A stretch of DNA of 23,839 nucleotides, taken from IMG/VR virus record IMGVR_UViG_3300023110_002430, positions 1 to 23,839 of that record, one strand, 5' to 3'. Below, piece by piece: positions 3,136 through 15,450 of this stretch (positions are counted from its first letter, which is position 1; each line of letters starts with the position of its first letter). Source of the DNA: a virus. The notes below the pieces were generated by a model that ran no database searches, was not told the DNA's origin, and saw only the letters and a program-made list of their open reading frames with translations. The translations under genes were made by a program, and so were the position numbers.

Positions 3136-3698
3136 AAAATTTTATTGGTATATACGACAATTCCATTAGTGATGAATTGATACAAGACTATTTTGATTAT
3201 TGGGATAATAATCAAGTTTTTGTTAAATCTGGTATGGTTGGAAATAATGGAAAGGTTGTTGTAAATACTGATGTAAAAGATTCACAAGATTTAACATCTA
3301 ATAATCTTCCAGGTGAGTTGATTATGAGGTATCAAACCTCGTTACAAAAAGTTTTAAATGAATATTTAAAAGAATATGAACATGCTAATAACGTTGATCA
3401 ATTTAGAATTATACAAGAATATAATTTTCAATGCTATCCTCCAGGCGGAGGTTTTAAAACTTGGCATCATGAATTAGCTCATCATAGAACAGATGGAACT
3501 CGACATTTAGTTTTTATGACATATTTAAATACTGTTAAAGATGGTGGCACTGAATTTTTATATCAAGATTTAAAAGTTGATGCTGTCAAAGGTAGGACAA
3601 TAATTTGGCCACCAGGTTTTACACATACTCATAGAGGAGTAATAGCTCAAGAACCTAAAGCAATTTTAACAGGATGGTGGAGCTTAGTACCACAATGA
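3132..3698 (+). CDS. 2OG-Fe(II) dioxygenase, prolyl-4-hydroxylase-like
   Basis: 188 aa, TTG start in a TTGA overlap with the upstream stop. The double-stranded beta-helix signature is clear: H112-x-E114 inside TWHHE as proximal iron ligands, LVFMTYLNTVKDGGTEFLYQ (126-145), GRTIIWPPGFTHTHRG (154-169) carrying the distal His, and K176 placed to bind the 2-oxoglutarate carboxylate. HxE rather than HxD is less common. Such P4H-like oxygenases are frequent in marine T4-like phages with unknown substrates. It does not look like the TET/JBP DNA-base oxygenases, although a C5-cytosine methyltransferase-like gene is present elsewhere; a protein substrate is the default expectation. Confidence 0.85.
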   Translation: MKNFIGIYDNSISDELIQDYFDYWDNNQVFVKSGMVGNNGKVVVNTDVKDSQDLTSNNLPGELIMRYQTSLQKVLNEYLKEYEHANNVDQFRIIQEYNFQCYPPGGGFKTWHHELAHHRTDGTRHLVFMTYLNTVKDGGTEFLYQDLKVDAVKGRTIIWPPGFTHTHRGVIAQEPKAILTGWWSLVPQ

Positions 3699-3880
3699 GT
3701 CTCCATATCTTTGCATCGCCAATGGTAGCATTTTTTATGATACTCATATGGGCAGCATTGTTTGGTGATACTGTATTCTTTCTAATAGAAAATAATATGA
3801 TTGAAGAATGGATTATTTGTATACAGATTTATATTTCAATAATGTTATTAGTAAAATTTAAAAGGACTTTGTATAAATGA
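3695..3880 (+). CDS. Small membrane protein, two predicted helices
   Basis: 61 aa from the ATG at 3695, which shares ATGA with the oxygenase stop; an upstream in-frame start at 3674 lies inside the oxygenase and is less likely. Two hydrophobic stretches (about 8-30 and 38-55) separated by an acidic turn, and a basic tail (KFKRTLYK), predict a double-spanning inner-membrane protein. Family not recognised. Its stop overlaps the start of kdsA. Confidence 0.6.
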   Translation: MSLHIFASPMVAFFMILIWAALFGDTVFFLIENNMIEEWIICIQIYISIMLLVKFKRTLYK

Positions 3881-4662
3881 GAATTATCGCCGGACCATGT
3901 CAACATGAAACCTTTGAACAAAGTTTAGAAATCGCTTTACATTGTAAAGATGTTTGTGATAAGTACGAAGCTGAATATTATTTTAAAGCTAGTTTTGATA
4001 AAGCAAATAGAACAAGCTTGACTGGAAAACGTGGTCTTGGTATGCCAATGACTCTACATCATTTCCGTGATTTAAAAACCGAAATACCTGGTCTTAAAAT
4101 TCTTACTGATGTTCATAGTGTAGAACAAGTTAGACAATTGGGGTATCAAGGTAGTGGAAATCTAGTAGACGTACTACAGATTCCAGCATTTCTCTGTAGG
4201 CAAACAGATTTAATTGTTGAAGCTTGTAGAACAGAGAAAATAGTAAATATAAAAAAAGGTCAATTTCTAGCGCCTTGGGATGTTACAGGAATTTTAAGTA
4301 AAACACAAGGTGCGAAAGAAGTATGGATAACTGAAAGAGGTACAAGTTTTGGATATAATAACCTTGTTGTCGATTTCACTGGTGTTGACTATATGCTTAA
4401 TAATTATGACTGCGATATTGTTCTCGATGTTACTCACTCTGTCCAAAAGCCCGGCGGAATTGGACATTGCTCGGGCGGTGCTCCTATTCACGTGCCTGGG
4501 TTGGCTCGTTGTGGGGCTGCTTTGGGGGTCACTTCCTTCTTTATCGAAGTCCACCCTATGCCTGAATCCGCACCCAGTGATTCGGAAAGTATGCTTAGAT
4601 TAGATGATTTTGAAAGAGTTGTAGATGAAATCCACCGCTATTCTTATTCCAGCGAGATATGA
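3877..4662 (+). CDS. kdsA: 3-deoxy-8-phosphooctulonate synthase, metal-dependent class
   Basis: 261 aa, near the usual 265-285. Condenses phosphoenolpyruvate with D-arabinose 5-phosphate to KDO-8-phosphate, the first committed step to the LPS inner-core sugar KDO. Motifs: IAGPC at 4-8, KASFDKANR (37-45), QIPAFLCRQTDL (101-112), KKGQFLAPWD (126-135), RGTSFGYNNLVVD, DVTHSVQ (184-190), FIEVHP. C8, H187, E224 and D235 match the metal ligands of the Aquifex-type (class II) enzyme; the E. coli metal-independent class has Asn instead of that Cys. It overlaps kdsB by 38 bases and lies in one run with a PEP carboxykinase that could supply PEP. The stretch near 4430-4575 uses markedly more G/C at third positions than the rest of the gene. 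Confidence 0.95.
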   Translation: MRIIAGPCQHETFEQSLEIALHCKDVCDKYEAEYYFKASFDKANRTSLTGKRGLGMPMTLHHFRDLKTEIPGLKILTDVHSVEQVRQLGYQGSGNLVDVLQIPAFLCRQTDLIVEACRTEKIVNIKKGQFLAPWDVTGILSKTQGAKEVWITERGTSFGYNNLVVDFTGVDYMLNNYDCDIVLDVTHSVQKPGGIGHCSGGAPIHVPGLARCGAALGVTSFFIEVHPMPESAPSDSESMLRLDDFERVVDEIHRYSYSSEI

Positions 4663-5302
4663 GTCAAGTAGATACCCTGGTAAGCCATTAGTTAATCTTG
4701 GTGAAATGACTATGATTGAAAGAGTGTATGAGACTTGTGCTGATACAGGTTTAGATACATATGTACTTACTGATGACTATAGAATTGCTTCATTATTTAA
4801 TGACAATAATTGTCGATTAGATACTACAGAATATAATAATGGTACAGAAAGATGTGCCGGAGCGCTCGATAAAATACCAGAATATGATCAGTACATAAAC
4901 GTTCAAGGTGATATGCCTGATGTGAATAAGCATATGATTAATAAAGTAATATGGCATTTAAAGCATTACCCTATCACTACTCTTTTCACCGATATGCCAG
5001 AAAAAATGCGAAATGATCCTAACTCTGTAAAAGTAGTAAGAGGTGGAGATAAAGCCCTTTGGTTCGGAAGAGGAATGGCAGGCTATGGCGATTGGCATTT
5101 AGGAATTTATGGATATAAAAGAAATCCTTTACAATTCTATAGCAAGTATGGTATAATAGAAGAAGAAAGAATAGAACAACTAGAGCAATTGCGCTGGTTA
5201 AAAACAGGTTGGGACATAGGTATACTGCATACTGAATTTAATGGAATAGAAATTAATACACCAGAAGATGAAAAAAGGTGGAATGAAAAATGGCTAATAT
5301 AG
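4625..5302 (+). CDS. kdsB: CMP-KDO synthetase
   Basis: 225 aa, slightly short of the usual 240-255. Transfers CMP from CTP to KDO, giving CMP-KDO. Diagnostic motifs: IPARYESSRYPGKPL (8-22), the VLTDD metal-site strand (47-51), NGTER (72-76) and INVQGDMP (91-98); the C-terminal WDIGILHTEFNGIEINTPED segment matches the family's W...GIdT..D end. It follows kdsA with overlapping frames and overlaps the PEP carboxykinase start by 13 bases, so the three are likely co-translated. No KDO transferase is visible in the window; the product may feed host LPS enzymes or a phage glycosyltransferase elsewhere. Confidence 0.93.
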   Translation: MKSTAILIPARYESSRYPGKPLVNLGEMTMIERVYETCADTGLDTYVLTDDYRIASLFNDNNCRLDTTEYNNGTERCAGALDKIPEYDQYINVQGDMPDVNKHMINKVIWHLKHYPITTLFTDMPEKMRNDPNSVKVVRGGDKALWFGRGMAGYGDWHLGIYGYKRNPLQFYSKYGIIEEERIEQLEQLRWLKTGWDIGILHTEFNGIEINTPEDEKRWNEKWLI

Positions 5303-6480
5303 AAATAATAACTAACCCAACTGGCAGATCTCCTGAGAATAAAATATTTTATGGAAACTTAGCTAGAAAACTAGATTTATCAAGACCAAAATATAATAAG
5401 ATAGGCGAAGAAAAATATTTTTGGGAATTTTATGAAGATTTAAATGAATACAATTATAAACATTACTTGCATTTTTATACTTCTCGTCGCGGTTTTGCTG
5501 TCTTAACTAATGATGATAGACATGCTCAATTTGTAAGAAACATGTTTTCAGTAGTAGATGATCCAACTGAACATTATGCAGAATGGAAAATTATTCACAA
5601 CACTGAAATTAATTGTCCACCTACAATTGCTGTACATTTAGATGAAAAAATTATGTTAATTGGTGGAACTACTTTTCTAGGTGAAATTAAAAAAGGAGTG
5701 TTTGGTATTTTAGGATTTGAATTACCAGACGAAAATGTTTTACCAATGCATTGTAGTGCTTTTACTTTTAAGGATAAAACTAATCTTATGTTTGGATTAA
5801 GTGGAACAGGTAAAACAACATTAAGTAGTGATCCTCAATTTGGTTTAATTTCAGATGATGAAGTATCTTGGAATGAAGAAGGCATCGCAAAAGTTGAAGA
5901 AGGCTGCTATGCTAAATCAGAAGGTTTGTCACCTGAAACACATCCAACTATTTTTAATGCTGTGGAAGCTGCAAAAAAAGCTGAAACATTAGTAATAGAA
6001 AATCCTGGTGCTGCTAATGCTAGATTAAGTTATCCTTTAAAGTATGTAGAAAATGCATATATAAATGATACACAATTCAAACATCCTAATAATATATTTT
6101 TTCTAACAATGGATGCTACAGGTAGTTTTCCTCCAGTAAGTAAAATTTCTGGAGAAACTGTAAGACGGTTCTTTGAAACTGGATATACAAGTCAAATGCC
6201 AGGCACTGAAGCAGGTGTTGAAGAAATTAAAAAAATATTTTCACCATGTTATGGATCACCTTTTATGCCTAGAAATGTAAATGTATATAGCGATATGTTA
6301 ATGGAAAAAATAGAAGAACATGATGTTAATGTTTATTTAATTAATACTGGTATGGATAAAAAAGGTAAAAGATTTCCATTAGAATTTACTCGTAATTGTG
6401 TAACAAATTCTCTAATTAGAGGAGCCGAAGATAGAAGCGAAGAAGTCTTAGAAATCTTAGAAAGGATGATAAATGGGTGA
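5290..6480 (+). CDS. pckA: ATP-type phosphoenolpyruvate carboxykinase, shortened form
   Basis: 396 aa against about 530-540 in bacteria. Converts oxaloacetate and ATP to PEP, CO2 and ADP. Motifs in order: TGRSPENK at 11-18 (bacterial TGRSPKDK, oxaloacetate-binding Arg), GTTFLGEIKKGVFG (126-139, metal-binding Lys), LPMHCSA (151-157, metal-binding His), kinase-1a P-loop GLSGTGKTTLS (169-179), ISDDEVSW (187-194, kinase-2), GCYAKSEGLSPE, ANARLSYP (242-249), PPVSKIS, PGTEAG, GSPFMP and a TRNCV end. The first 50-60 residues of the bacterial enzyme and part of the C-terminal domain are missing, but every catalytic motif I can place is retained. PEP is a KdsA substrate, so its position after kdsAB suggests local supply. 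Confidence 0.92.
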   Translation: MANIEIITNPTGRSPENKIFYGNLARKLDLSRPKYNKIGEEKYFWEFYEDLNEYNYKHYLHFYTSRRGFAVLTNDDRHAQFVRNMFSVVDDPTEHYAEWKIIHNTEINCPPTIAVHLDEKIMLIGGTTFLGEIKKGVFGILGFELPDENVLPMHCSAFTFKDKTNLMFGLSGTGKTTLSSDPQFGLISDDEVSWNEEGIAKVEEGCYAKSEGLSPETHPTIFNAVEAAKKAETLVIENPGAANARLSYPLKYVENAYINDTQFKHPNNIFFLTMDATGSFPPVSKISGETVRRFFETGYTSQMPGTEAGVEEIKKIFSPCYGSPFMPRNVNVYSDMLMEKIEEHDVNVYLINTGMDKKGKRFPLEFTRNCVTNSLIRGAEDRSEEVLEILERMING

Positions 6481-6559
6481 AGTATTTACAGCAATTAGTA
6501 TCCTGGCAATTATAATTATTGGATTTTATATTATTGCAGTAACGGAGATGAATAAATGA
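6473..6559 (+). CDS. 28-residue single-span membrane microprotein
   Basis: Encodes 28 aa between pckA and the cupin gene: its ATG overlaps the pckA stop, and its TGA overlaps the next start as ATGA. After a short MGEV lead, residues 5-23 are continuously hydrophobic (Ile/Ala/Gly-rich), then comes VTEMNK. The double overlap and an AAGGATG element just upstream support translation. Function unknown; a membrane peptide modulating a host or phage membrane protein is conceivable. Confidence 0.55.
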   Translation: MGEVFTAISILAIIIIGFYIIAVTEMNK

Positions 6560-6942
6560 AAGCAGGAAAAGTATGGGGCACTACTGAGCTTATTGAAGCA
6601 AATGGTGCATTAGAGTTTCATCGTATTGAAATGGAAGAAGGCGGCGTGTGTTCTAAACACTTACATCGTTATAAATGGAATGGTTTTTATGTCGAATCTG
6701 GTAAGATGCTTATTCGTACATGGCAACGTGATTATGATTTAGTTGATATTACTATTCTTCATGAAGGTGATTATCACAAAGTTAAACCTGGTCTTTATCA
6801 TCAATTTGAGTGTCTTAAAGAAGGCGTAGCATATGAGCTATACTGGGCAGAATTTAATCATAATGATATTGAGCGTGAAACTGTTGGTTATCATATTGAT
6901 GATGATAGTGATCCATTTAGTGTAGATAAAATAGGTTGTTAA
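6556..6942 (+). CDS. Small single-domain cupin protein
   Basis: 128 aa. The conserved cupin barrel is visible: motif 1 around KHLHRYKWNGFYVESGKM (34-51) with two His as metal ligands, and motif 2 around GDYHKVKPGLYHQFECL with a third His. It resembles sugar-binding cupins such as phosphomannose isomerase-like or dTDP-sugar isomerase-like small proteins rather than a dioxygenase, but the reaction is not determined. Its position between pckA and a nucleotidyltransferase places it in the sugar-acid block, and it recalls the cupin half of the fusion at 220-996. Confidence 0.8.
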   Translation: MKAGKVWGTTELIEANGALEFHRIEMEEGGVCSKHLHRYKWNGFYVESGKMLIRTWQRDYDLVDITILHEGDYHKVKPGLYHQFECLKEGVAYELYWAEFNHNDIERETVGYHIDDDSDPFSVDKIGC

Positions 6943-6943
6943 T

Positions 6944-7381
6944 ATGAAAGTAGGATTTACATGTAGTACGTTTGACTTGCTTCATGCTGGTCATATCGCA
7001 ATGCTAAGAGAAGCAAAAGAACAATGCGATTGGCTTATTTGTGGATTGCAAGTAGATCCGTCTTGGGATCGTGAAGAAAAAAACTCACCTATTCAAAGTG
7101 TAGTAGAAAGATACAAACAACTTTCTGCAGTAAAATATGTAGATGAAATCATTGTTTATTGTACAGAATCCGATTTACTTGATATAATAAACATGTATCC
7201 AATTGATGTACGTATACTTGGTGATGAATATAAAGATAAAGATTTTACTGGCAAAGATGAATGTAGACGTAGAAATATTTCTTTATATTTTAATAAACGA
7301 GACCACAGATTTTCGTCATCAGATTTGCGTAAAAGAGTATTTGAAAGAGAGCTAGAAAAAAATGATTCTCCAAACGGTTAG
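6944..7381 (+). CDS. Cytidylyltransferase-like protein (TagD/HldE-C group)
   Basis: 145 aa, close to glycerol-3-phosphate cytidylyltransferase (about 130). TCSTFDLLHAGHIAMLREAKEQCD (6-29) is the CTP-binding HxGH region, VERYKQLSAVKYVDEI the second conserved block, DVRILGDEYKDKDFTG the acceptor-site region, and HRFSSSDLRKRV (about 120-131) the RxSSxxL-type C-terminal motif. The enzyme would form a CDP- or ADP-linked sugar or alditol. It overlaps the next gene by 20 bases. Confidence 0.85.
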   Translation: MKVGFTCSTFDLLHAGHIAMLREAKEQCDWLICGLQVDPSWDREEKNSPIQSVVERYKQLSAVKYVDEIIVYCTESDLLDIINMYPIDVRILGDEYKDKDFTGKDECRRRNISLYFNKRDHRFSSSDLRKRVFERELEKNDSPNG

Positions 7382-8060
7382 TGACATACGTCAATTTTTT
7401 ATTGATGAACTAAATGATGAAGCCTTTACTATAGATAAAACAGGTCAAAAAACTATTGAGTTAATTGGTGCTAATTTTTTATGCACTGAACCTGCTATTT
7501 TTGGTACACCTAGTCAAGAATATATTAACAAAGAAATAGCTTGGTATGAATCAGGTTCAACAAACATTTATGATATAAATGGTGTTGATTCAGATGCACC
7601 TCCTCAAGCATGGCAATACGCAGCAAATAAACATGGTGAAATAAATTCTAATTATGGTCACTTACTTTTTTCTGAAAAATATCATTATCAATTCCAACAT
7701 GCCTTTGATGAATTACAAGCTAATCCAGATTCACGTCGTGCACAAATGATTTATAACCGTCCATCAATATGGTGTGAATATAATGAAGGCGGTAAATCTG
7801 ATTTTATTTGCACTAATGCACAAACATTTTATATTCGTGATGGCATACTTTCAATGGTATCTCAAATGCGTTCTAATGATGTTGTTTATGGATATAAAAA
7901 TGATTATGCTTGGGCACAATACTTAATGGATAAATTTGTAAGAGAATGGAATTCATTAGCAGAAATTTATGGTGAACATGGTCCTATTGAAAAAGGTATG
8001 TTAATGTGGCAAGTCATGAATTTACACGTGTATGAACGTCACTTCCATTTAGTTAAATAA
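7362..8060 (+). CDS. dCMP hydroxymethylase-like enzyme (thymidylate synthase fold)
   Basis: 232 aa, close to T4 gp42 (246 aa). Catalytic Cys is C150 in FICTNAQ; general-base Glu is E58. The position that is Asn177 in E. coli thymidylate synthase (dUMP-selective) and Asp179 in T4 gp42 (dCMP-selective) is D181 here, inside GYKNDYAW; the Cys-to-Asp spacing of 31 equals gp42 (C148 to D179). The SRRAQMIYNRPS block binds the nucleotide phosphate. The predicted reaction is dCMP plus methylene-THF to 5-hydroxymethyl-dCMP. A separate ThyX gene at 18171 would cover dTMP synthesis, which supports this one not being a thymidylate synthase. The stretch 7470-7900 is typical AT-rich phage coding sequence. 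Confidence 0.85.
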   Translation: MILQTVSDIRQFFIDELNDEAFTIDKTGQKTIELIGANFLCTEPAIFGTPSQEYINKEIAWYESGSTNIYDINGVDSDAPPQAWQYAANKHGEINSNYGHLLFSEKYHYQFQHAFDELQANPDSRRAQMIYNRPSIWCEYNEGGKSDFICTNAQTFYIRDGILSMVSQMRSNDVVYGYKNDYAWAQYLMDKFVREWNSLAEIYGEHGPIEKGMLMWQVMNLHVYERHFHLVK

Positions 8061-8069
8061 GGATATGGA

Positions 8070-8753
8070 ATGAAAGAATTTAGATGTGGTCCTGAATGGG
8101 ATGAAAGAATTGTAAAACTAAATCCAGCTAAAAAGATTGGTGTGTTAATGTCATCAGGCGCTGACAGCACTACACTTTTTAAATTATTATGGGACAATTT
8201 TCCTGATACAGAAATTAGAATTTTTAATGTACAGACTTCATGGGATCCTAAGAAACCTTTAATTGAAGAAATCCTTGAAAAATTTGACGTTGATTTAGAA
8301 TTAGAAATCATCGGAGAAAAGTATCATAATTGGGAAATGAAAAATCATTTTGCTAGACTTATGCTTGCGTTTCAAGATGTAAGAAATGATGAAGATATTG
8401 AAGAACTTTATTGTGGAAATATTTTGCCTCCACATCCTCAATGGTTTCCTCGTTGGAATGTAGACCAAAAGGGAATGGCAAAACGCCCATGGCTAACTAA
8501 TGATAAATTTTGGAAGAATCCGTTTGAACATATTGAAAAATATCATGTAATTGATTTAGGAAGACGGAATGGATTTGACTATATTTATGACACAACTATT
8601 TCATGTAACACTCACGCCACTGAACCTTGTGGTTATTGTATGGGGTGTAGAGAATTAGAATATGCATATGATCAATTAGATAATGAAAAAGGTCTATCTC
8701 TTGATGAGTGTGCTAAAATTGCAGTAAATATGTATGGAGATATAGGATGGTAG
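8070..8753 (+). CDS. QueC-like ATP pyrophosphatase with zinc site
   Basis: 227 aa. SSGADS at 28-33 is a PP-loop (SGGxDS family), and a C-terminal Cys cluster, C179, C187, C190 and C193 (PCGYCMGC), matches the zinc site of 7-cyano-7-deazaguanine synthase (QueC). QueC makes preQ0 from carboxy-deazaguanine using ATP and ammonia; in some phages preQ0 derivatives enter DNA. QueD, QueE, FolE and DpdA are not visible here, and the middle of the protein (GNILPPHPQWFPRWNVDQKG) is not typical QueC, so it could be a related amide- or nitrile-forming enzyme with another substrate. It sits between the dCMP hydroxymethylase-like gene and a methyltransferase. Confidence 0.7.
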   Translation: MKEFRCGPEWDERIVKLNPAKKIGVLMSSGADSTTLFKLLWDNFPDTEIRIFNVQTSWDPKKPLIEEILEKFDVDLELEIIGEKYHNWEMKNHFARLMLAFQDVRNDEDIEELYCGNILPPHPQWFPRWNVDQKGMAKRPWLTNDKFWKNPFEHIEKYHVIDLGRRNGFDYIYDTTISCNTHATEPCGYCMGCRELEYAYDQLDNEKGLSLDECAKIAVNMYGDIGW

Positions 8754-9304
8754 ACTTAGTTGAAAAATATAATCATGCTGCTAAGACATATTATGAAGAA
8801 AAATATGTTGATGGCGGATGGGAAAACAACATCTATATGCAAGATGAGAAAGATGCTCATGAGTTTTGGATGGAGAATATAGAAGAGGGAAAAATTATTT
8901 CATTAGGTGTTGGATCCGGACAAGACATTCCTATCTTACAATGGCCTGGACCAGAAAATTTTACAGGATATGATTTATCTCAAGGCATGTTAAATAATGC
9001 TAAAGAAAAGTTTAAAGATTATAACTTTGTTTTAGCTGATTGTAATGAAAATATAGATGATAGCTGTGATGTTCTTGTTAGTTTATTTGGTGTACCTAAT
9101 TACATAGGTCTTCCTAAGTTGTTGGAGCACTATAGAAATTTTAATGCTCAGCATGCTTTTTTTATATTTTATGCAGAATGGTATGATGATGGCATTGCTG
9201 AAGAATACCATAAATACACTAAAGAAGAATTACAAAAATTGTTGTATCCTTATAATCCTATTATTAAACAACTAAATGAAAATTATTATATCGTTAAATG
9301 GTAG
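8747..9304 (+). CDS. Class I SAM-dependent methyltransferase
   Basis: 185 aa. Motif I is IISLGVGSGQD (50-60), motif II contains the acidic GYDLSQGML at about 73-81, and VLADCNENI the next acidic loop; the later half FFIFYAEWYDD and YYIVKW completes the Rossmann core. No DNA target-recognition motif (NPPY, DPPY, PCQ) is seen, so a small-molecule or protein substrate is more likely than DNA. It overlaps the QueC-like gene by 7 bases; the coupling suggests a shared pathway. Confidence 0.8.
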   Translation: MVDLVEKYNHAAKTYYEEKYVDGGWENNIYMQDEKDAHEFWMENIEEGKIISLGVGSGQDIPILQWPGPENFTGYDLSQGMLNNAKEKFKDYNFVLADCNENIDDSCDVLVSLFGVPNYIGLPKLLEHYRNFNAQHAFFIFYAEWYDDGIAEEYHKYTKEELQKLLYPYNPIIKQLNENYYIVKW

Positions 9305-9454
9305 ATGTTAATAAAATTTTACATTACTTGGATATGGCATATTAGTACTTGGAAGTTTAAAATTACACCTAAAGAAGTTAGATGTAATAATGAAACTACC
9401 AGGTATTATTCTATTAGAATAGGACCTATCTGGATGAAGTGGTATGTAAAATGA
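9305..9454 (+). CDS. Small Trp-rich, basic protein
   Basis: 49 aa, ATG directly after the methyltransferase stop; its TGA overlaps the next start as ATGA. Seven Trp or paired aromatic clusters (TWIWH, STWKF, IWMKWY) and many Lys suggest a small membrane-surface or nucleic-acid-contacting protein. No family recognised. Accepted because of the exact end-to-end packing with both neighbours. Confidence 0.5.
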   Translation: MLIKFYITWIWHISTWKFKITPKEVRCNNETTRYYSIRIGPIWMKWYVK

Positions 9455-9699
9455 ACTGGTTAATAGTAGTAATATTTGGAACATTGCAAGGCGATGTTTA
9501 TATTTTTGAAAAGCCTAGGTTTGAAACTAGAGAAGAATGTATGGTTAGTATTAGAGATCCATTAGATCAAATCGCGTATCTTGGAAAATTAAAAGAAGAA
9601 TATGGAAAAGACATGCCAATATTAGCAGTAAACTGTTTGCAAGAAAAAGTAATAAAAGAAATATTAAAAAAATCTTTTGGTGAAGAGCAAGAAGTATGA
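9451..9699 (+). CDS. Small exported protein, paralogue of those at 21085 and 22240
   Basis: 82 aa from the ATG at 9451 (ATGA overlap), preferred to an in-frame start at 9439 inside the upstream gene. Residues 1-12 (MNWLIVVIFGTL) form a short hydrophobic signal-like start; the mature part contains F-E-T-R-E-E-C and later AVNC. The same plan, hydrophobic start, then an aromatic-(S/T)-x-x-x-C helix start, then a final strand ending in Cys, is seen at 21085-21312 and 22240-22413. The two Cys could form a disulfide in the periplasm. Function unknown. Confidence 0.65.
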   Translation: MNWLIVVIFGTLQGDVYIFEKPRFETREECMVSIRDPLDQIAYLGKLKEEYGKDMPILAVNCLQEKVIKEILKKSFGEEQEV

Positions 9700-10130
9700 A
9701 ATGGGATATACGATATTTAAAATTAGCAGAAGAAGTATCTAAGTGGTCTAAAGATCCATCTTCTCAAATCGGTGCTATTGCTGTAGGATCTAAAGGTCAA
9801 GTTTTATCTCAAGGATATAATGGTTTTCCTAGAGGAATAACAGATTCTCTTGATAGATATGCAGTGAGAGAAACTAAATACAAGTACATAGTACATGCTG
9901 AACAGAATGTAATTTATAACGCAACATACAACGGAGTATCATTAGATGGAGCTACCTTATTTGTTCATGGCTTGCCTGTTTGCAACCATTGTGCTCTTGG
10001 TGTTATTCAGGTAGGAATAAAAAGAGTTGTTATGCCAAGACAAAAAATAAAAGAACAGTGGGTCGAGTCATGGAATATGACTAAACAATTATTTGATGAA
10101 GCAGGCGTAGAGTATGAATTCATTTGCTGA
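9696..10130 (+). CDS. dCMP deaminase
   Basis: 144 aa. Zinc-dependent deamination of dCMP to dUMP. HAE at 67-69 supplies His and the proton-shuttling Glu, and PVCNHC (94-99) the two Cys ligands; the N-terminal helix plus KDPSSQIGA and GYNGFPRG segments are typical of T4 gp cd-like enzymes. T4-like phages use it to make dUMP for thymidylate synthase; here the acceptor enzyme would be ThyX. ATGA overlap with the upstream gene and a 17-base overlap with the radical SAM gene. Confidence 0.92.
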   Translation: MKWDIRYLKLAEEVSKWSKDPSSQIGAIAVGSKGQVLSQGYNGFPRGITDSLDRYAVRETKYKYIVHAEQNVIYNATYNGVSLDGATLFVHGLPVCNHCALGVIQVGIKRVVMPRQKIKEQWVESWNMTKQLFDEAGVEYEFIC

Positions 10131-10839
10131 AATGTATTCCAAAATTATAGAGGGATACAGATGGACAGTAATAAATGTAGACACTACTCATAGGTGTTTA
10201 CTTCAATGTCAGTTTTGTTCACGCCAATCTGAAGTTCAAGGACAACCTATGATTTCTGATTATAGGAAATCTTATGGTGATTTAAAATCAAAAGAATTGA
10301 GAAAGTTAACTAACTTCGTAAGAAGTGGCATTTCATTTTGTGGTCAGATTTCTGATCCTATCTATCACAAAGATTTTATTTCATTATTGTCATCAATAGA
10401 TGATGTAACATATTTAGAAAAAATCGAAATTCATACAAATGGATCTGGAAAAAAACAAGAGTATTGGGATGAACTTGTAGATGTAGCTTGGCAACTTCCA
10501 ACTAGAATAGAATGGCACTTTGGTATAGATGGCATAGATGAAAAAGCAGCTATTCATAGAGTTGGCCAAGATTTTCATTCAGCTTTTGAGGCAATGAAAT
10601 ATGTAGCATCAAGGCAAAGAAGAGAACCTGAATGGGAAAGGTGGAGAGTCATTTGGCAATACATTCCATTTGCATATAATGAACATGATATTATGAAAGC
10701 AAAAGAAATGGCAGATGAAATAGATGTAGAATTAATATTACTTACTTCAGGTAGGTTTAATCCTGACAGTCCAGTTGCTCCTCCTACAAATATAAATTTA
10801 ATTTCTAAAAAACTATTTGGTGAGAAAAAAAGAGTATGA
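10114..10839 (+). CDS. Radical SAM core protein
   Basis: 241 aa. C28-x3-C32-x2-C35 (CLLQCQFC) binds the 4Fe-4S cluster; SFCGQISDP and later IEIHTNGSG and GIDGIDE are the barrel strands that bind SAM. Related radical SAM proteins with a C-terminal SPASM domain are widespread in marine T4-like phages, substrate unknown. Here the protein stops after the core, and the SPASM-like part is a separate overlapping gene (10836-11150). A run of seven A (10825-10831) lies just before the stop, and the downstream frame is -1, so a fused product by frameshifting is possible. Confidence 0.88.
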   Translation: MNSFAEMYSKIIEGYRWTVINVDTTHRCLLQCQFCSRQSEVQGQPMISDYRKSYGDLKSKELRKLTNFVRSGISFCGQISDPIYHKDFISLLSSIDDVTYLEKIEIHTNGSGKKQEYWDELVDVAWQLPTRIEWHFGIDGIDEKAAIHRVGQDFHSAFEAMKYVASRQRREPEWERWRVIWQYIPFAYNEHDIMKAKEMADEIDVELILLTSGRFNPDSPVAPPTNINLISKKLFGEKKRV

Positions 10840-11150
10840 AACTTTATCCTCAATGTTGGAGCGTAACAATGGAAGGCGATTATAAACCCAATGATGGATT
10901 TCCTGGTGCAGGAAATGGTTTAGCCTTTACTGCTTCAGGGCATCTTCTTCCTTGTTGTTATTTAGATAAGTATCACAACTATAAAAATAATACTAAAAAT
11001 TTATGGGATGATGAATTAAGAGTTGATCGAAATGATGACATTCTTGATATTATAGAATCAGAACAGTGGTATAACTTTCACAAAGAATTATATGAACATC
11101 CTGAAAATGCATGTAAAGAATGTCACATGCATTGTTCTTCACCAAAATAA
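10836..11150 (+). CDS. SPASM-like auxiliary iron-sulfur domain protein
   Basis: 104 aa, ATGA overlap with the radical SAM stop. Cys at 7, 40, 41, 93, 96 and 100, with GLAFTASGHLLPCCYLD in the middle and a final C-x2-C-x3-C, resemble a SPASM domain: G-x-hydrophobic-PCC followed by NLW and a Cys-rich end. It very likely acts with the upstream protein as a two-subunit enzyme or by frameshift fusion. The gene is followed by a promoter for the AGT operon. Confidence 0.78.
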   Translation: MKLYPQCWSVTMEGDYKPNDGFPGAGNGLAFTASGHLLPCCYLDKYHNYKNNTKNLWDDELRVDRNDDILDIIESEQWYNFHKELYEHPENACKECHMHCSSPK

Positions 11151-11159
11151 AAAAAATAG

Positions 11160-11188
11160 TTTACATTTGTGTAAAAATATGTTAGAAT
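11160..11188 (+). promoter_or_regulatory. Promoter of the shared class upstream of the AGT-like gene
   Basis: -35 TTTACA (11160-11165), 17 bp, -10 TAGAAT (11183-11188). The downstream leader contains TCATAAATAC near 11201 and an AAGGAA ribosome site before the ATG at 11246. It would drive the glycosyltransferase, epimerase, dehydrogenase and methyltransferase genes. Confidence 0.8.
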
Positions 11189-11245
11189 TATATTTAATAA
11201 TCATAAATACGTATATCACACACTTGTAAATTTAAGGAATCATAA

Positions 11246-12493
11246 ATGACTAGAATTGCTATTATCCTTGGTCGTGGTACTGAAGGCTGCGGTGTAACAC
11301 AATGTGCTATTCAAATGCAAAAAGTAACAGGAGCAGATATCTATTCTGCAATTGATAAAAAATGGGGACGAGCTAAAGGATTAGAAATTGATCAAAAAGA
11401 ATTTGTAATGGGTACGCAGTGGGAATTAACTGCAGATGTTATTAATTCAATGTATGATTTAGCAATCATTTATTCAGTACCTTCTAAGTCTCATCCACAA
11501 GATTGTCAAGATAATTTTGTACCATTTTTACAGAGACTAAAAATACGTAAAGCGTTTATTAATGTAGACCATAAAGCTGCTTCAATAGCACGTAATGCTA
11601 ATCTAAAAGAAGTTTGCGAAAATGTTGATGTCATTATGACTCACAGTCTTGAAAATGATTTCTCAAAATTTATGAAGAAAAATAGAATCCAAACTCCATT
11701 AACTAAAATGGGTTTGGGTTTTGATTATGAGGATCACCGTCAAAAGTATTGGCGACCAATTGAAGAACAACAGCATAATATGGTTCGTTGGATTGGTCGT
11801 ACTGCAATGTGGAAAGGTCCTAGTTTAATGATTGATTTCCATCAAGATGCTTTGATGGAGCAAGGATTTATAACTGTCCTTGAAGGTTTAGAAGCTTCTA
11901 TACAATATCCTCTTGTTTTATATCGTGATAATAAAGAAGATAATCCTGTTGATCGCCGCATGGTTGAAAATTATTTTAGACCAGAAAAGAAATTTAATGA
12001 AGTCAAGTTTACACCTGACTTGTATGGTAAAGAAGAAACCAATAAAGGTGCTTATCTATATCCTCAATACATAAATAATGAGGCAATGATGAGAATGGCA
12101 CGTTCAGCATTTGGTTCAGATCTTTATCATTTAAAAGCAGAAACATATGGTAACAATATTGAAAATTGTCATGCTGAATGTATTGCATCTGGCACTGTAC
12201 CATTATTCCATAAACATTTCTGTGATAACGTAATACACCCTGTACAGGGTGATCCTATTAGTCAATGCAAAAATTCTGGCACTCTTGGTGTTGACTATAC
12301 TAATTTTAAAGAGTGTCAAGAAATGATGACAAAACTCAAAAACGATCCGTCTATGAGAGATGATTGGAGAGAAATGGCATTTGAATTTTGGAAACAACAC
12401 TCCAATGGTGAGGATGTTGTAAATGAAATTATTGATCTTGCTATTAACACAACTGAAAACCAACCACAAGGACTAGAGGAATTTTTCGTATGA
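11246..12493 (+). CDS. T4 alpha-glucosyltransferase (AGT)-like DNA hmC glycosyltransferase
   Basis: 415 aa, against 400 in T4 AGT. T4 AGT transfers glucose from UDP-glucose to 5-hydroxymethylcytosine in DNA. Recognised by an N-terminal RGTEGCGVT block (10-18) next to the Rossmann start, a DH at 108-109 in the position of the T4 catalytic-loop His, RWIGRTAMWKG (181-191) whose R and K would bind donor phosphates, TVLEGLEAS (210-218), and AECIASGTVPLFHK (310-323). These match T4 AGT from memory, in order and spacing. The GT-B fold is expected. The next genes encode UDP-sugar epimerase and dehydrogenase, so the donor may be a modified UDP-sugar. Overlaps the epimerase start as ATGA. Confidence 0.88.
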   Translation: MTRIAIILGRGTEGCGVTQCAIQMQKVTGADIYSAIDKKWGRAKGLEIDQKEFVMGTQWELTADVINSMYDLAIIYSVPSKSHPQDCQDNFVPFLQRLKIRKAFINVDHKAASIARNANLKEVCENVDVIMTHSLENDFSKFMKKNRIQTPLTKMGLGFDYEDHRQKYWRPIEEQQHNMVRWIGRTAMWKGPSLMIDFHQDALMEQGFITVLEGLEASIQYPLVLYRDNKEDNPVDRRMVENYFRPEKKFNEVKFTPDLYGKEETNKGAYLYPQYINNEAMMRMARSAFGSDLYHLKAETYGNNIENCHAECIASGTVPLFHKHFCDNVIHPVQGDPISQCKNSGTLGVDYTNFKECQEMMTKLKNDPSMRDDWREMAFEFWKQHSNGEDVVNEIIDLAINTTENQPQGLEEFFV

Positions 12494-13449
12494 AAATTTT
12501 AGTAACAGGTATTGCCGGCATGATCGGCTTTCACGCAGCCAGGCACTTCGCAAAAAATAATTGGGAAGTATGTGGCTTAGACAATTTTAATGATTATTAC
12601 GATCCACAATTAAAAGAAGATCGTGCTAACATTTTACAAGAAGAATATAATGTTCCTATTATGCGAGGGGACATTGAAGACTTTAAAGTAATTAATGACA
12701 ATACGTCATTTATGAAAGATGTAGATATTGTATTACACTTAGCTGCATATGCAAATCCAAGACACGCTCTTGAAGAACCGCAACCATATATTGATACTAA
12801 CATAACTGGAACACAACGTATTATAGAAGTATGTGAAGAACTAAACATACCAGTTGTATATGCATCAAGCTCCTGCGTTATGCATGGACAGCCTTTACCT
12901 TGGAATGAACATGATCGACCAGATTTACAAAACAATCCATATGGTTGGTCTAAACGAGTAAATGAATGTCAGTTTTCTCATTCTAAAATTTCACGTTCTG
13001 CAGGCCTTCGCTTCTTTACAGTGTATGGACCATATGGTCGACCAGACATGGCTCTATTTAAATTCACAGATGGAATCGTTAAAGGTGAACCAATCACACT
13101 TTATAATTATGGTGATATGAAACGTGATTTTACCTATGTACAAGACATCGTAGATGGTATAGAATTAGTAGTAGATAAAGCTATGAATGAAACCAATCAA
13201 GAATGGCATGAAATCTATAATATTGGTTATGGCCAACAGGTTAATCTATTAGATTTTGTAGATGAAATTGAAAAAAATCTTGATCGGAAAGCAGAAAGAG
13301 AATTAGCGCCTAAACATCCTGCAGATGTCCCTGAGACGTGGTCTGACACTACTAAATTACAAGCGTTAGGTTATAATCCTAAAACTTCTATAACAGATGG
13401 TGTTAAAGAATTCATTACATGGTACAAAAGTTATTATGGAGTTAATTAA
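12490..13449 (+). CDS. UDP-glucuronate 4-epimerase-like SDR protein
   Basis: 319 aa. Extended short-chain dehydrogenase: TGIAGMIG (6-13) binds NAD, HLAAYANPRHALEEP follows, ASSS supplies the catalytic Ser, and YGWSK is the Y-x3-K pair. GLRFFTVYGPYGRPDMALF, YNYGDMKRDFTYV and HPADVPETWSDT closely match LpsL/WbpP/GAE-type UDP-glucuronate 4-epimerases rather than GalE. Expected reaction: UDP-GlcA to UDP-GalA. It is placed between the AGT-like gene and a UDP-glucose dehydrogenase-like gene, which would make its substrate. A related C4-carboxylate decarboxylase or GDP-sugar activity cannot be excluded from motifs alone. Confidence 0.87.
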   Translation: MKILVTGIAGMIGFHAARHFAKNNWEVCGLDNFNDYYDPQLKEDRANILQEEYNVPIMRGDIEDFKVINDNTSFMKDVDIVLHLAAYANPRHALEEPQPYIDTNITGTQRIIEVCEELNIPVVYASSSCVMHGQPLPWNEHDRPDLQNNPYGWSKRVNECQFSHSKISRSAGLRFFTVYGPYGRPDMALFKFTDGIVKGEPITLYNYGDMKRDFTYVQDIVDGIELVVDKAMNETNQEWHEIYNIGYGQQVNLLDFVDEIEKNLDRKAERELAPKHPADVPETWSDTTKLQALGYNPKTSITDGVKEFITWYKSYYGVN

Positions 13450-14267
13450 TGAGAATGACAATTGTTGGCCACGGGTTTGTTGGCAAAGCTGTGGATTATG
13501 GCTTTTCAAATAAAGCTATTACTAAAACTATCATCGATCCTCTCTATAATACTACTTTAGATGATGTAGAATTAAGTGAAGATATAACGTTTGTTTGTGT
13601 TCCTACACCTATGGGTAAAGATGGATCGATCGATTGTTCTATTGTAGTTGATACTGTAACAAAACTTTTGCTACGTAGATCAGGAATCATTGTTATTAAA
13701 TCAACTGTGACACCTGACATAATTGAAAAATTTTCAAGACGCGGTGGAGGTGCTAGAGTAGTTTACAATCCTGAATTTTTAACTGAAAAAAATGCATGTG
13801 AAGATTTTGTAAATCCATCTATGCATATTTTTGGAGGAAATCCAGAAGCTACAGAAAGATTAGAACAAATCTATAAAGACTTTAGCTTATGCAAGCCGTG
13901 TCCTGTATATCACATGACGTCCACTGATGCAAGCTTTGTAAAGTATGGAATTAATTGTTTCCTTGCATCAAAGGTCTTATGGATGAATCAATTTTATGAT
14001 GTCATAGAAAACTTTGGAGGAAATTATGGTGTTATCAGTAACGCAATTGGAACAGATCCAAGAATTGGTAGGTCTCATATTACTGTGCCTGGGTTTGATG
14101 GCAAGCGTGGCTTTGGTGGCGCTTGCTTCCCAAAAGACACAGCAGCGTTTGCGAACTTTGCGAAATCTTTTTCCGTTTTAGAAAAAGTTATCGAAGAGAA
14201 TAATAAGTATCGTAATTGTTATGATAAAGATGAAAGAGAAAAGGCTCAGAATGTAAATTATGGTTAA
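13449..14267 (+). CDS. UDP-glucose 6-dehydrogenase-like, shortened
   Basis: 272 aa against about 390-450 in bacteria. N-terminal Rossmann GHGFVGKA (7-14), VPTPMG, IKSTVTP, YNPEFLTE, then an NCFLASKVLWMNQ helix with the conserved Asn/Lys, and GFGGACFPKDT near 223-233 with the catalytic Cys. It would oxidise UDP-glucose to UDP-glucuronate with two NAD. The C-terminal UDP-binding domain of cellular enzymes is absent, yet all catalytic residues I can place remain. ATG follows the epimerase stop with one shared base; the stop overlaps the next gene by 8 bases. Confidence 0.88.
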   Translation: MRMTIVGHGFVGKAVDYGFSNKAITKTIIDPLYNTTLDDVELSEDITFVCVPTPMGKDGSIDCSIVVDTVTKLLLRRSGIIVIKSTVTPDIIEKFSRRGGGARVVYNPEFLTEKNACEDFVNPSMHIFGGNPEATERLEQIYKDFSLCKPCPVYHMTSTDASFVKYGINCFLASKVLWMNQFYDVIENFGGNYGVISNAIGTDPRIGRSHITVPGFDGKRGFGGACFPKDTAAFANFAKSFSVLEKVIEENNKYRNCYDKDEREKAQNVNYG

Positions 14268-15450
14268 GTATGCAAGTATAGTTCCACTCATTGGTGGAGA
14301 AACAATAGCAATGCAAAATGTATTTGGGACAAAACCTGAATATATATTATCATATACGGACTTTGAAGCAAATGACAGCCAACTTCTTAATTATTACGAC
14401 AATAGCGTTCCTTATTATAAGCTTGACGTGGGTGGTCTTGCGCCTCATAGTGTCGATGTTGTCAACACTGTTTGCCCTTGCGCTGGCTTGTCTTCCCTTT
14501 CTCCTAGCAGCAATGCTGATAGCAGCACTAATGACTGGATGGTCAAGTCAGCAGAATATGTTTTGGAATCAATTCAGCCAACAGTTTTTTGGGGAGAAAA
14601 TGCTCCAAGATTAGCAAGCAAAATGGGTGAAAAGGTTGTAGCACAACTTCGTCAACTAGCAAGAAAAAATGGTTATACCTTTAGCATTTATAAAACTAAA
14701 TCTATTTTACATGGACTAAGTCAAATTAGAGATAGAACTTTCTATTTTTTCTGGAAAGGTAACTCAATTCCAAGATTTAATTTTTATAAAAGACAATATG
14801 AAAAAATTGAAGACACTATTCGTTCTGCTGCAACCAATGAAGCAGATCCAATGTTTGAAACTTTAACAAATAGTAAGACTCCATCTGAAGAACCTTTTTA
14901 TCAATACGTATTACAAGAAATGCATGGTGGTATTAGTCATATGGAATTTTTCAATTTAATTGAAAAAACAACCAATCCATTGCATTATATTGAAGACAAA
15001 GGTGTTGATTACGAAGATGTAGCAAAATGGATGGACGATAATGGCCATGAAAATCATGCACGTAAATGTCGTAGGATGGGTGAAAAGCTAAAAGCTGGTG
15101 GTAACATTATGAGAAAAACTACAGAAGTTGGTAAAAATTATATTGGTGCTTTTGTTGGTCATTTTCCAATGGAACTTACTCATCCAGATCAAGACAGATA
15201 TTTAAATATTAGAGAAGCTTTGTCAATTATGAAAATGCCTAAGGATTTTCAATTAGTAGGTGGTCGAAAAAACATTAATATGATTTGTCAAAACGTTCCA
15301 GTAACTACTGCACAAGACATGGCTGAAAATGTAAAAAGATTTTTAAGCGGTGATGCTTGTCTTGTTGAGTCAGATTTCGTAATTCAAGATAATAAATCAG
15401 AAACCTTTTGGTCTGAAAAACAACCGGCAACATTAGAAGCATTTATGTAA
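14260..15450 (+). CDS. C5-cytosine DNA methyltransferase-like protein
   Basis: 396 aa. Motif I-like PLIGGETIAMQNVFG (9-23), motif IV with catalytic C74 in VNTVCPCAGLSSLSP (68-82; canonical PPCQGFS), motif VI-like GENAP (112-116; canonical ENV), motif VIII-like QIRDRTFYFFW (155-165), and a C-terminal CQNVPVTTAQ resembling motif X. It would form 5-methylcytosine, or act on a related target, through the Cys adduct. The Q of PCQ is Ala here. If phage DNA carries hmC in place of C, a C5 methyltransferase would have little phage substrate, so host DNA or another acceptor may be the target. Third-position G/C rises sharply at 14395-14535, over the catalytic motif. Confidence 0.83.
   Translation: MVKYASIVPLIGGETIAMQNVFGTKPEYILSYTDFEANDSQLLNYYDNSVPYYKLDVGGLAPHSVDVVNTVCPCAGLSSLSPSSNADSSTNDWMVKSAEYVLESIQPTVFWGENAPRLASKMGEKVVAQLRQLARKNGYTFSIYKTKSILHGLSQIRDRTFYFFWKGNSIPRFNFYKRQYEKIEDTIRSAATNEADPMFETLTNSKTPSEEPFYQYVLQEMHGGISHMEFFNLIEKTTNPLHYIEDKGVDYEDVAKWMDDNGHENHARKCRRMGEKLKAGGNIMRKTTEVGKNYIGAFVGHFPMELTHPDQDRYLNIREALSIMKMPKDFQLVGGRKNINMICQNVPVTTAQDMAENVKRFLSGDACLVESDFVIQDNKSETFWSEKQPATLEAFM

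Follow-up and report, generated by a model that had tools for sequence, protein, structure and literature searches.

A short PEP carboxykinase of a marine T4-like phage encoded next to KDO-type sugar genes

Introduction

In marine viruses, genes for KDO/LPS synthesis and for gluconeogenesis are already known. kdsA and kdsB have been listed as marine viral AMGs (PMC10653327), as has pckA (PMC12448302), and a T4-like genome of 179 kb was reported to contain aceBA plus KdsA (PMC5332604). In the literature on marine viral AMGs, no description was found of a pckA-kdsA operon, of a clade of short PEP carboxykinases (PEPCKs) or of chromosomal copies of such a gene, and a search for the Tyr207 position treated below and for phage gluconeogenic modules found nothing either.

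The DNA analyzed here, hereafter called the window, is the whole stretch of 23,839 nucleotides of a virus record. It encodes an ATP-type PEPCK in direct continuation of kdsA and a kdsB-like gene. The window was compared to other phage loci and to bacterial genomes sharing the short PEPCK.

Results

An IMG/VR virus record of 23.8 kb, the window harbors the T4-type genes AGT (DNA alpha-glucosyltransferase) and uvsX. Its source is a marine T4-like phage; the label "phage", given in a preliminary description of the DNA, agrees with the virus contig and with these two genes. The same description had reported that kdsA, kdsB and pckA overlap end to end. Its coordinates were right, all three genes lie on the plus strand and the overlaps comprise 38 and 13 nt (Table 1). 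The three ORFs are intact and each is under purifying selection, with dN/dS values of 0.03-0.14 for pckA and 0-0.23 for kdsA/kdsB.

Table 1. Features in and around the kdsA-kdsB-pckA block of the window
Feature	Position	Strand	Evidence
Short ORF, 68 aa, 4-nt overlap with kdsA start	3674..3880	+	also in sister contigs L002-L004
kdsA, class II (metal-type) KDO-8-phosphate synthase, 261 aa	3877..4662	+	PF00793 1.8e-48; NF003543; PDB 3fs2 8.7e-68
kdsB-like cytidylyltransferase, 225 aa, Asn211 for Mg-ligand Asp	4625..5302	+	PF02348 3.6e-23; PDB KdsB 1gq9 3.4e-24
pckA, short ATP-type PEPCK, 396 aa	5290..6480	+	PF01293 1.1e-93; AlphaFold model; conserved catalytic residues
Small cupin, travels with kdsAB	6556..6942	+	PF07883; neighbourhood counts
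RfaE-domain-II-like nucleotidyltransferase, frequent in kdsAB island	6944..7381	+	TIGR02199 1.4e-18 (below cut-off); neighbour counts

Elsewhere in the window, an RfaE-II-like nucleotidyltransferase is fused to a mannose-6-phosphate-isomerase-type cupin (220-996). Positions 7362-15450 are likely a DNA-modification cluster, which comprises a thymidylate-synthase-like gene, a putative dCMP-deaminase-like ORF, the T4-type DNA alpha-glucosyltransferase, a sugar epimerase, a C5-cytosine methyltransferase-like gene and a UDP-sugar dehydrogenase-like gene in which the N-terminal domain is incomplete. At 10114-11150, a radical SAM gene precedes an ORF of its own for the SPASM domain. Two such pairs lie side by side in both L006 and L016.

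The PEPCK of the window belongs to a family of proteins with approximately 395 aa, compared to approximately 530 aa in cellular enzymes, that was detected in at least 101 virus contigs (IMG/VR scans gave 24, then 101). Nearly all phage relatives have about 395-410 aa, the longest ORFs ranging from 393 to 444 aa, plus one fragment of 365 aa. The window protein scored 315 bits against PF01293 (cut-off 26.5) and failed the equivalog TIGR00224 for the full-length enzyme (268 bits, cut-off 590). In 18 aligned phage PEPCKs, R13, K134, K135, H154, K175, T176, D190, R245, R361, T367, the lid and the P-loop GLSGTGKTTLS are invariant. HMMER alignments assigned the phage residues to K212, K213, H232, K254/T255, D269, R333 and R449/T455 of E. 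coli, while R13 presumably corresponds to E. coli R65, as both would lie in a TGRSP motif. The sole exception among the catalytic residues checked is Tyr207 in the substrate pocket, where 64 of the 65 distinct phage proteins have Phe. An AlphaFold model of the window PEPCK (pLDDT 88.5) matched Thermus PEPCK with a Z score of 37.9 over 377 aligned residues, and the sequence absent from the phage protein is therefore mainly located at both ends. Among the matches listed in the structure-library comparison there were only PEPCKs, which is no argument against other folds.

Taken together, the phage enzyme shares the fold of cellular PckA (E. coli, Thermus) across nearly the full length of the model (Z 36-38) and keeps the equivalents of the P-loop, Arg65, Lys212/213, His232, Asp269, Arg333, the lid and Arg449/Thr455. 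By contrast, it is devoid of approximately 50 N-terminal and 70 C-terminal residues, contains Phe instead of Tyr207, is only about 30-34% identical and forms a separate clade in the tree. With a PF01293 match far beyond chance, the fold and most catalytic residues retained, the initial assignment as pckA holds. A truncated pseudogene was rejected because of the uniform short length and the purifying selection, and bacterial pckA contaminating virus contigs because of the distinct clade and of phage replication genes in the neighbourhood. Several GenBank matches to "phage" PEPCKs (Salmonella, Escherichia and Staphylococcus records) look like bacterial DNA. The PEPCK of the huge phage LR756504.1 (636 kb) is, like the short form, encoded on a phage record, but it is full-length (approximately 528 aa) and cellular-like, has Tyr at position 207 and falls outside the short clade.

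KdsA passed the NCBIfam model NF003543 for KDO-8-phosphate synthase (305 bits, cut-off 242) and was slightly under that of TIGR01362 (296 bits, cut-off 314). The class II metal ligands Cys, His, Glu and Asp are present as C8, H187, E224 and D235 and invariant in nine phages, so that the kdsA call could be upheld. The phage protein keeps every metal and substrate motif inspected of the class II enzymes of Aquifex and Brucella, but it differs from them in forming a phage clade and in being encoded beside kdsB and, in the window lineage, pckA.

The KdsB-like protein is the weakest of the three assignments. It belongs to the KDO cytidylyltransferase family (CTP_transf_3 match, 3.6e-23), and the NCBIfam models that fit it best are without exception those of KDO cytidylyltransferases, with scores below their cut-offs (best 165 vs 193 bits). 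KdsB is reported to catalyze the rate-limiting step in LPS synthesis, and in the Aquifex enzyme Mg-A is held by two strictly conserved Asp residues, D95 and D219 (PMC3149649). The phage clade retains the first, whereas the second is Asn in all 82 scorable homologues, and QGDM replaces QGDE in nearly all of these proteins. The phage protein thus shares the fold family, the CTP-loop motif and the first Mg ligand (QGD) with CMP-KDO synthetases (KdsB/KpsU), but deviates by QGDM, by the Asn and by scores below the NCBIfam cut-offs. Because of the Asn it was classed as KdsB-like only. The loss of a strictly conserved metal-binding Asp makes its sugar uncertain; judging from the sequence, activity or substrate may differ, the enzyme either using a sugar other than ordinary KDO or holding the metal differently. 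The preliminary description had called the gene kdsB and had credited the phage with the first and last steps to CMP-KDO. The family and the first step, KdsA, stand, while for the last step the profile scores and the Mg ligand depart from KdsB and CMP-KDO is only the presumed product.

Linkage was counted over 45 distinct phage pckA lineages (<95% identity). The locus contained a class-I aldolase in 15 of them, kdsA in 12 and GAPDH in 11 (the aldolase was narrowly under the Pfam cut-off in a family check, 22.0 vs 22.2); PMM and MetK likewise adjoin pckA in some loci. Where pckA and kdsA share a locus, they usually overlap or touch, or kdsB alone lies between them. The order is kdsA-kdsB-pckA in the window and L014, kdsA-pckA-kdsB in L009, L010, L011 and L029, kdsA-pckA in L005 and L007, and pckA-kdsA in L006 and L008; in L031, kdsA is 9 kb away. 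The kdsA-linked pckA genes mostly form one ten-member clade which includes the window and is variable in internal order, while L014 and L016 lie on other branches of the pckA tree. Since L014, which has the window's gene order, is on a separate branch, the linkage arose or survived at least two times. One strand of L007 (2446-6925) contains GAPDH, a HAD-like gene, the class-I aldolase, kdsA and pckA in a gluconeogenesis-like phage cluster.

On the other hand, kdsA was found in only 8 of 34 long pckA records and is lacking, e.g., in those of 147, 151, 172, 177 and 245 kb, and 20 long kdsA/kdsB phage records contained no pckA. In virus contigs, kdsA and kdsB (>550 each) are far commoner than pckA. 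Within five ORFs of 114 distinct phage kdsA loci, kdsB was present 98 times, the small cupin 77 times and pckA 11 times, which indicates that the KDO module consists of kdsA, kdsB and cupin, with PEPCK as an optional addition. An obligate linkage of pckA and kdsA, as raised by the question in the preliminary description of whether pckA always adjoins kdsAB, was rejected: the link is real, but it is a minority pattern (12/45 pckA lineages, 11/114 kdsA loci), and long related phages carry pckA without kdsA, an occurrence that the preliminary description had itself named as evidence against its reading.

As aldolase and GAPDH are as common as kdsA and as unlinked records exist, PEPCK looks like a general gluconeogenic valve of phages, coupled to KDO-type sugar synthesis in the window lineage. 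It is less probable than not, though, that the enzyme has nothing specific to do with KDO and is simply a carbon valve toward hexoses, pentoses and dNTPs, brought next to kdsA by a shared hypervariable island. Such a role would fit the aldolase, GAPDH, PMM and MetK neighbours and the long records possessing only one of the two partners, but co-occurring pckA and kdsA genes mostly overlap or flank kdsB only, in four arrangements on at least two tree branches, and the overlapping ORFs argue for shared translation.

The remaining steps of the pathway were looked for as well. As had been noticed before, the window contains no evident kdsC, kdsD or KDO transferase gene. The longer contigs of the same population, L002 and L004 (41 and 53 kb), gave no match to TIGR00393, TIGR01670, PF04413 or PF05159, which extends the absence of the tested families to larger relatives. 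No match to KdsD (TIGR00393) or KdsC (TIGR01670) was obtained in 34 long pckA records, nor to KdsD in 20 long kdsA/kdsB records. A KdtA- or KpsC-type transferase was likewise not found in the phages, PF04413 and PF05159 (KdtA- and KpsC/S-type) having no match in 33 mixed records. The viral records are possibly fragments, none being rated at least 90% complete, and as their completeness is unstated these absences are provisional. They suggest that KdsC, KdsD and the KDO transferase are supplied by the host.

A scan of bacterial genomes revealed seven relatives of the short PEPCK, five in alphaproteobacterial genomes (L249, L250, L251, L252 and L254; four of the single-cell AG- series and one MAG) and two on phage-like contigs in MAGs. 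The latter (L248 and L253) are likely phage contigs binned with bacteria. L248 (PBPT01000016.1, 335 kb), from a Neomarinimicrobiota MAG, has a pckA identical to that of virus contig L025 and a KdsA-family match near 312 kb, and is probably a jumbo phage. In each alphaproteobacterial genome, the short gene (5001-6194 in the stretches of L249, L250 and L254) is the only PF01293 match. It is flanked by what we take, from the sequences, to be rapZ/hprK on one side and an acyl-CoA dehydrogenase gene on the other. Six relatives of the same order have etfB (where the stretch reaches it), etfA, a hydroxyacyl-CoA dehydrogenase gene, rapZ, hprK, a full-length pckA and an acyl-CoA dehydrogenase gene, in this succession. 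Compared with these relatives, identity is about 30-70% for the flanking genes, but only 33-37% for pckA. The other 120 genomes sampled from this order all possess a full-length PEPCK (in one case in two pieces). Phylogenetically, the short copies of the bacteria fall well inside the phage clade, with several forks of strong support (100/99) preceding them. Misbinned phage DNA was rejected for the alphaproteobacterial contigs, as their gene order is that of the relatives and, on contigs of up to 139 kb, GAPDH is the sole other match to the phage cluster.

Discussion

The best explanation of the data, and one that we regard as somewhat more probable than its negation, is a three-gene PEPCK-KDO unit in the window phage, with PEPCK serving elsewhere as a general gluconeogenic entry enzyme. 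kdsA, the kdsB-like gene and pckA would constitute one expression unit. Flux would run from host oxaloacetate and ATP to PEP and CO2 by the short PEPCK, KdsA would use PEP and host arabinose-5-P to form KDO-8-P, host KdsC would remove the phosphate and the KdsB-like enzyme would activate the sugar with CTP. In this scheme, the phage would provide the carbon as well as the committed and activation steps, and leave the rest to the host. In the wider family, PEPCK may be paired with whatever PEP- or triose-phosphate-using enzyme the phage has (KdsA, or GAPDH plus aldolase). Points that speak against this explanation are the low frequency of the coupling, the Asn at the Mg ligand of the KdsB-like proteins and the Phe at the Tyr207 position of PEPCK. 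The earlier proposal that PEPCK delivers PEP for KdsA is in this respect partly sustained: it is chemically sound and the adjacency recurs in several orders, but across the family PEPCK is not KDO-specific.

The end product may be destined for LPS, virion or DNA. In most Gram-negatives KDO is committed to LPS, and six of the seven bacterial genomes sharing the short PEPCK encode PF04413, the KDO transferase family. A remodeling or maintenance of the host LPS during infection, be it for superinfection exclusion or for envelope integrity, is therefore a serious possibility, albeit short of probable; a lock-out of this kind has been published for phage LPS genes (PMC5332604). It is weakened by the lack of LPS transferases of the tested families in the phage. 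It is also conceivable, but should be treated as tentative, that the product of the module is a KDO-like sugar destined for a glycan of the phage itself, on virion proteins or DNA, rather than for host LPS. The KdsB-like clade is unlike cellular KdsB at the metal ligand, a related 121-kb genome has several short ORFs near its structural genes that resemble, by eye, glycosyltransferases or methyltransferases, and in the distant cyanophage S-SCSM2R kdsA and kdsB are situated in a glycosyltransferase-rich region. The occurrence of these genes in a cyanophage contrasts with cyanobacterial LPS, which is reported to be without KDO (PMC4515613). However, identity between the S-SCSM2R genes and those of the window is only 30-39%, and the KdsB of this cyanophage retains Asp at the second Mg-ligand position. 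Moreover, no CMP-KDO-dependent transferase of the two families tested was found, which leaves room for retaining beta-KDO transferases of other families.

For the chromosomal copies, the canonical pckA locus, the absence of a second PF01293 match and the nesting in the phage clade suggest a virus-to-host replacement, and the simplest reading is that a phage-type pckA took the place of the native gene. We consider it quite probable that a minimal PEPCK evolved in phages replaced pckA in place in a marine alphaproteobacterial lineage and there runs the entry into gluconeogenesis in free-living cells. The reverse direction is possible, in that phages may have drawn repeatedly on an unsampled bacterial source. 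The low dN/dS values and the position as sole PF01293 copy at the native chromosomal locus also support the presumed enzymatic activity of the short PEPCK.

In size, the enzyme of the phage clade is below all PEPCK entries matched in this analysis. Its association with kdsA and kdsB ties, in marine phages, an enzyme of central carbon metabolism to genes for sugar synthesis and offers a testable view of where PEP comes from in infected cells. The chromosomal short pckA, if the replacement is true, would clearly exemplify how hosts can obtain a housekeeping enzyme from a virus.
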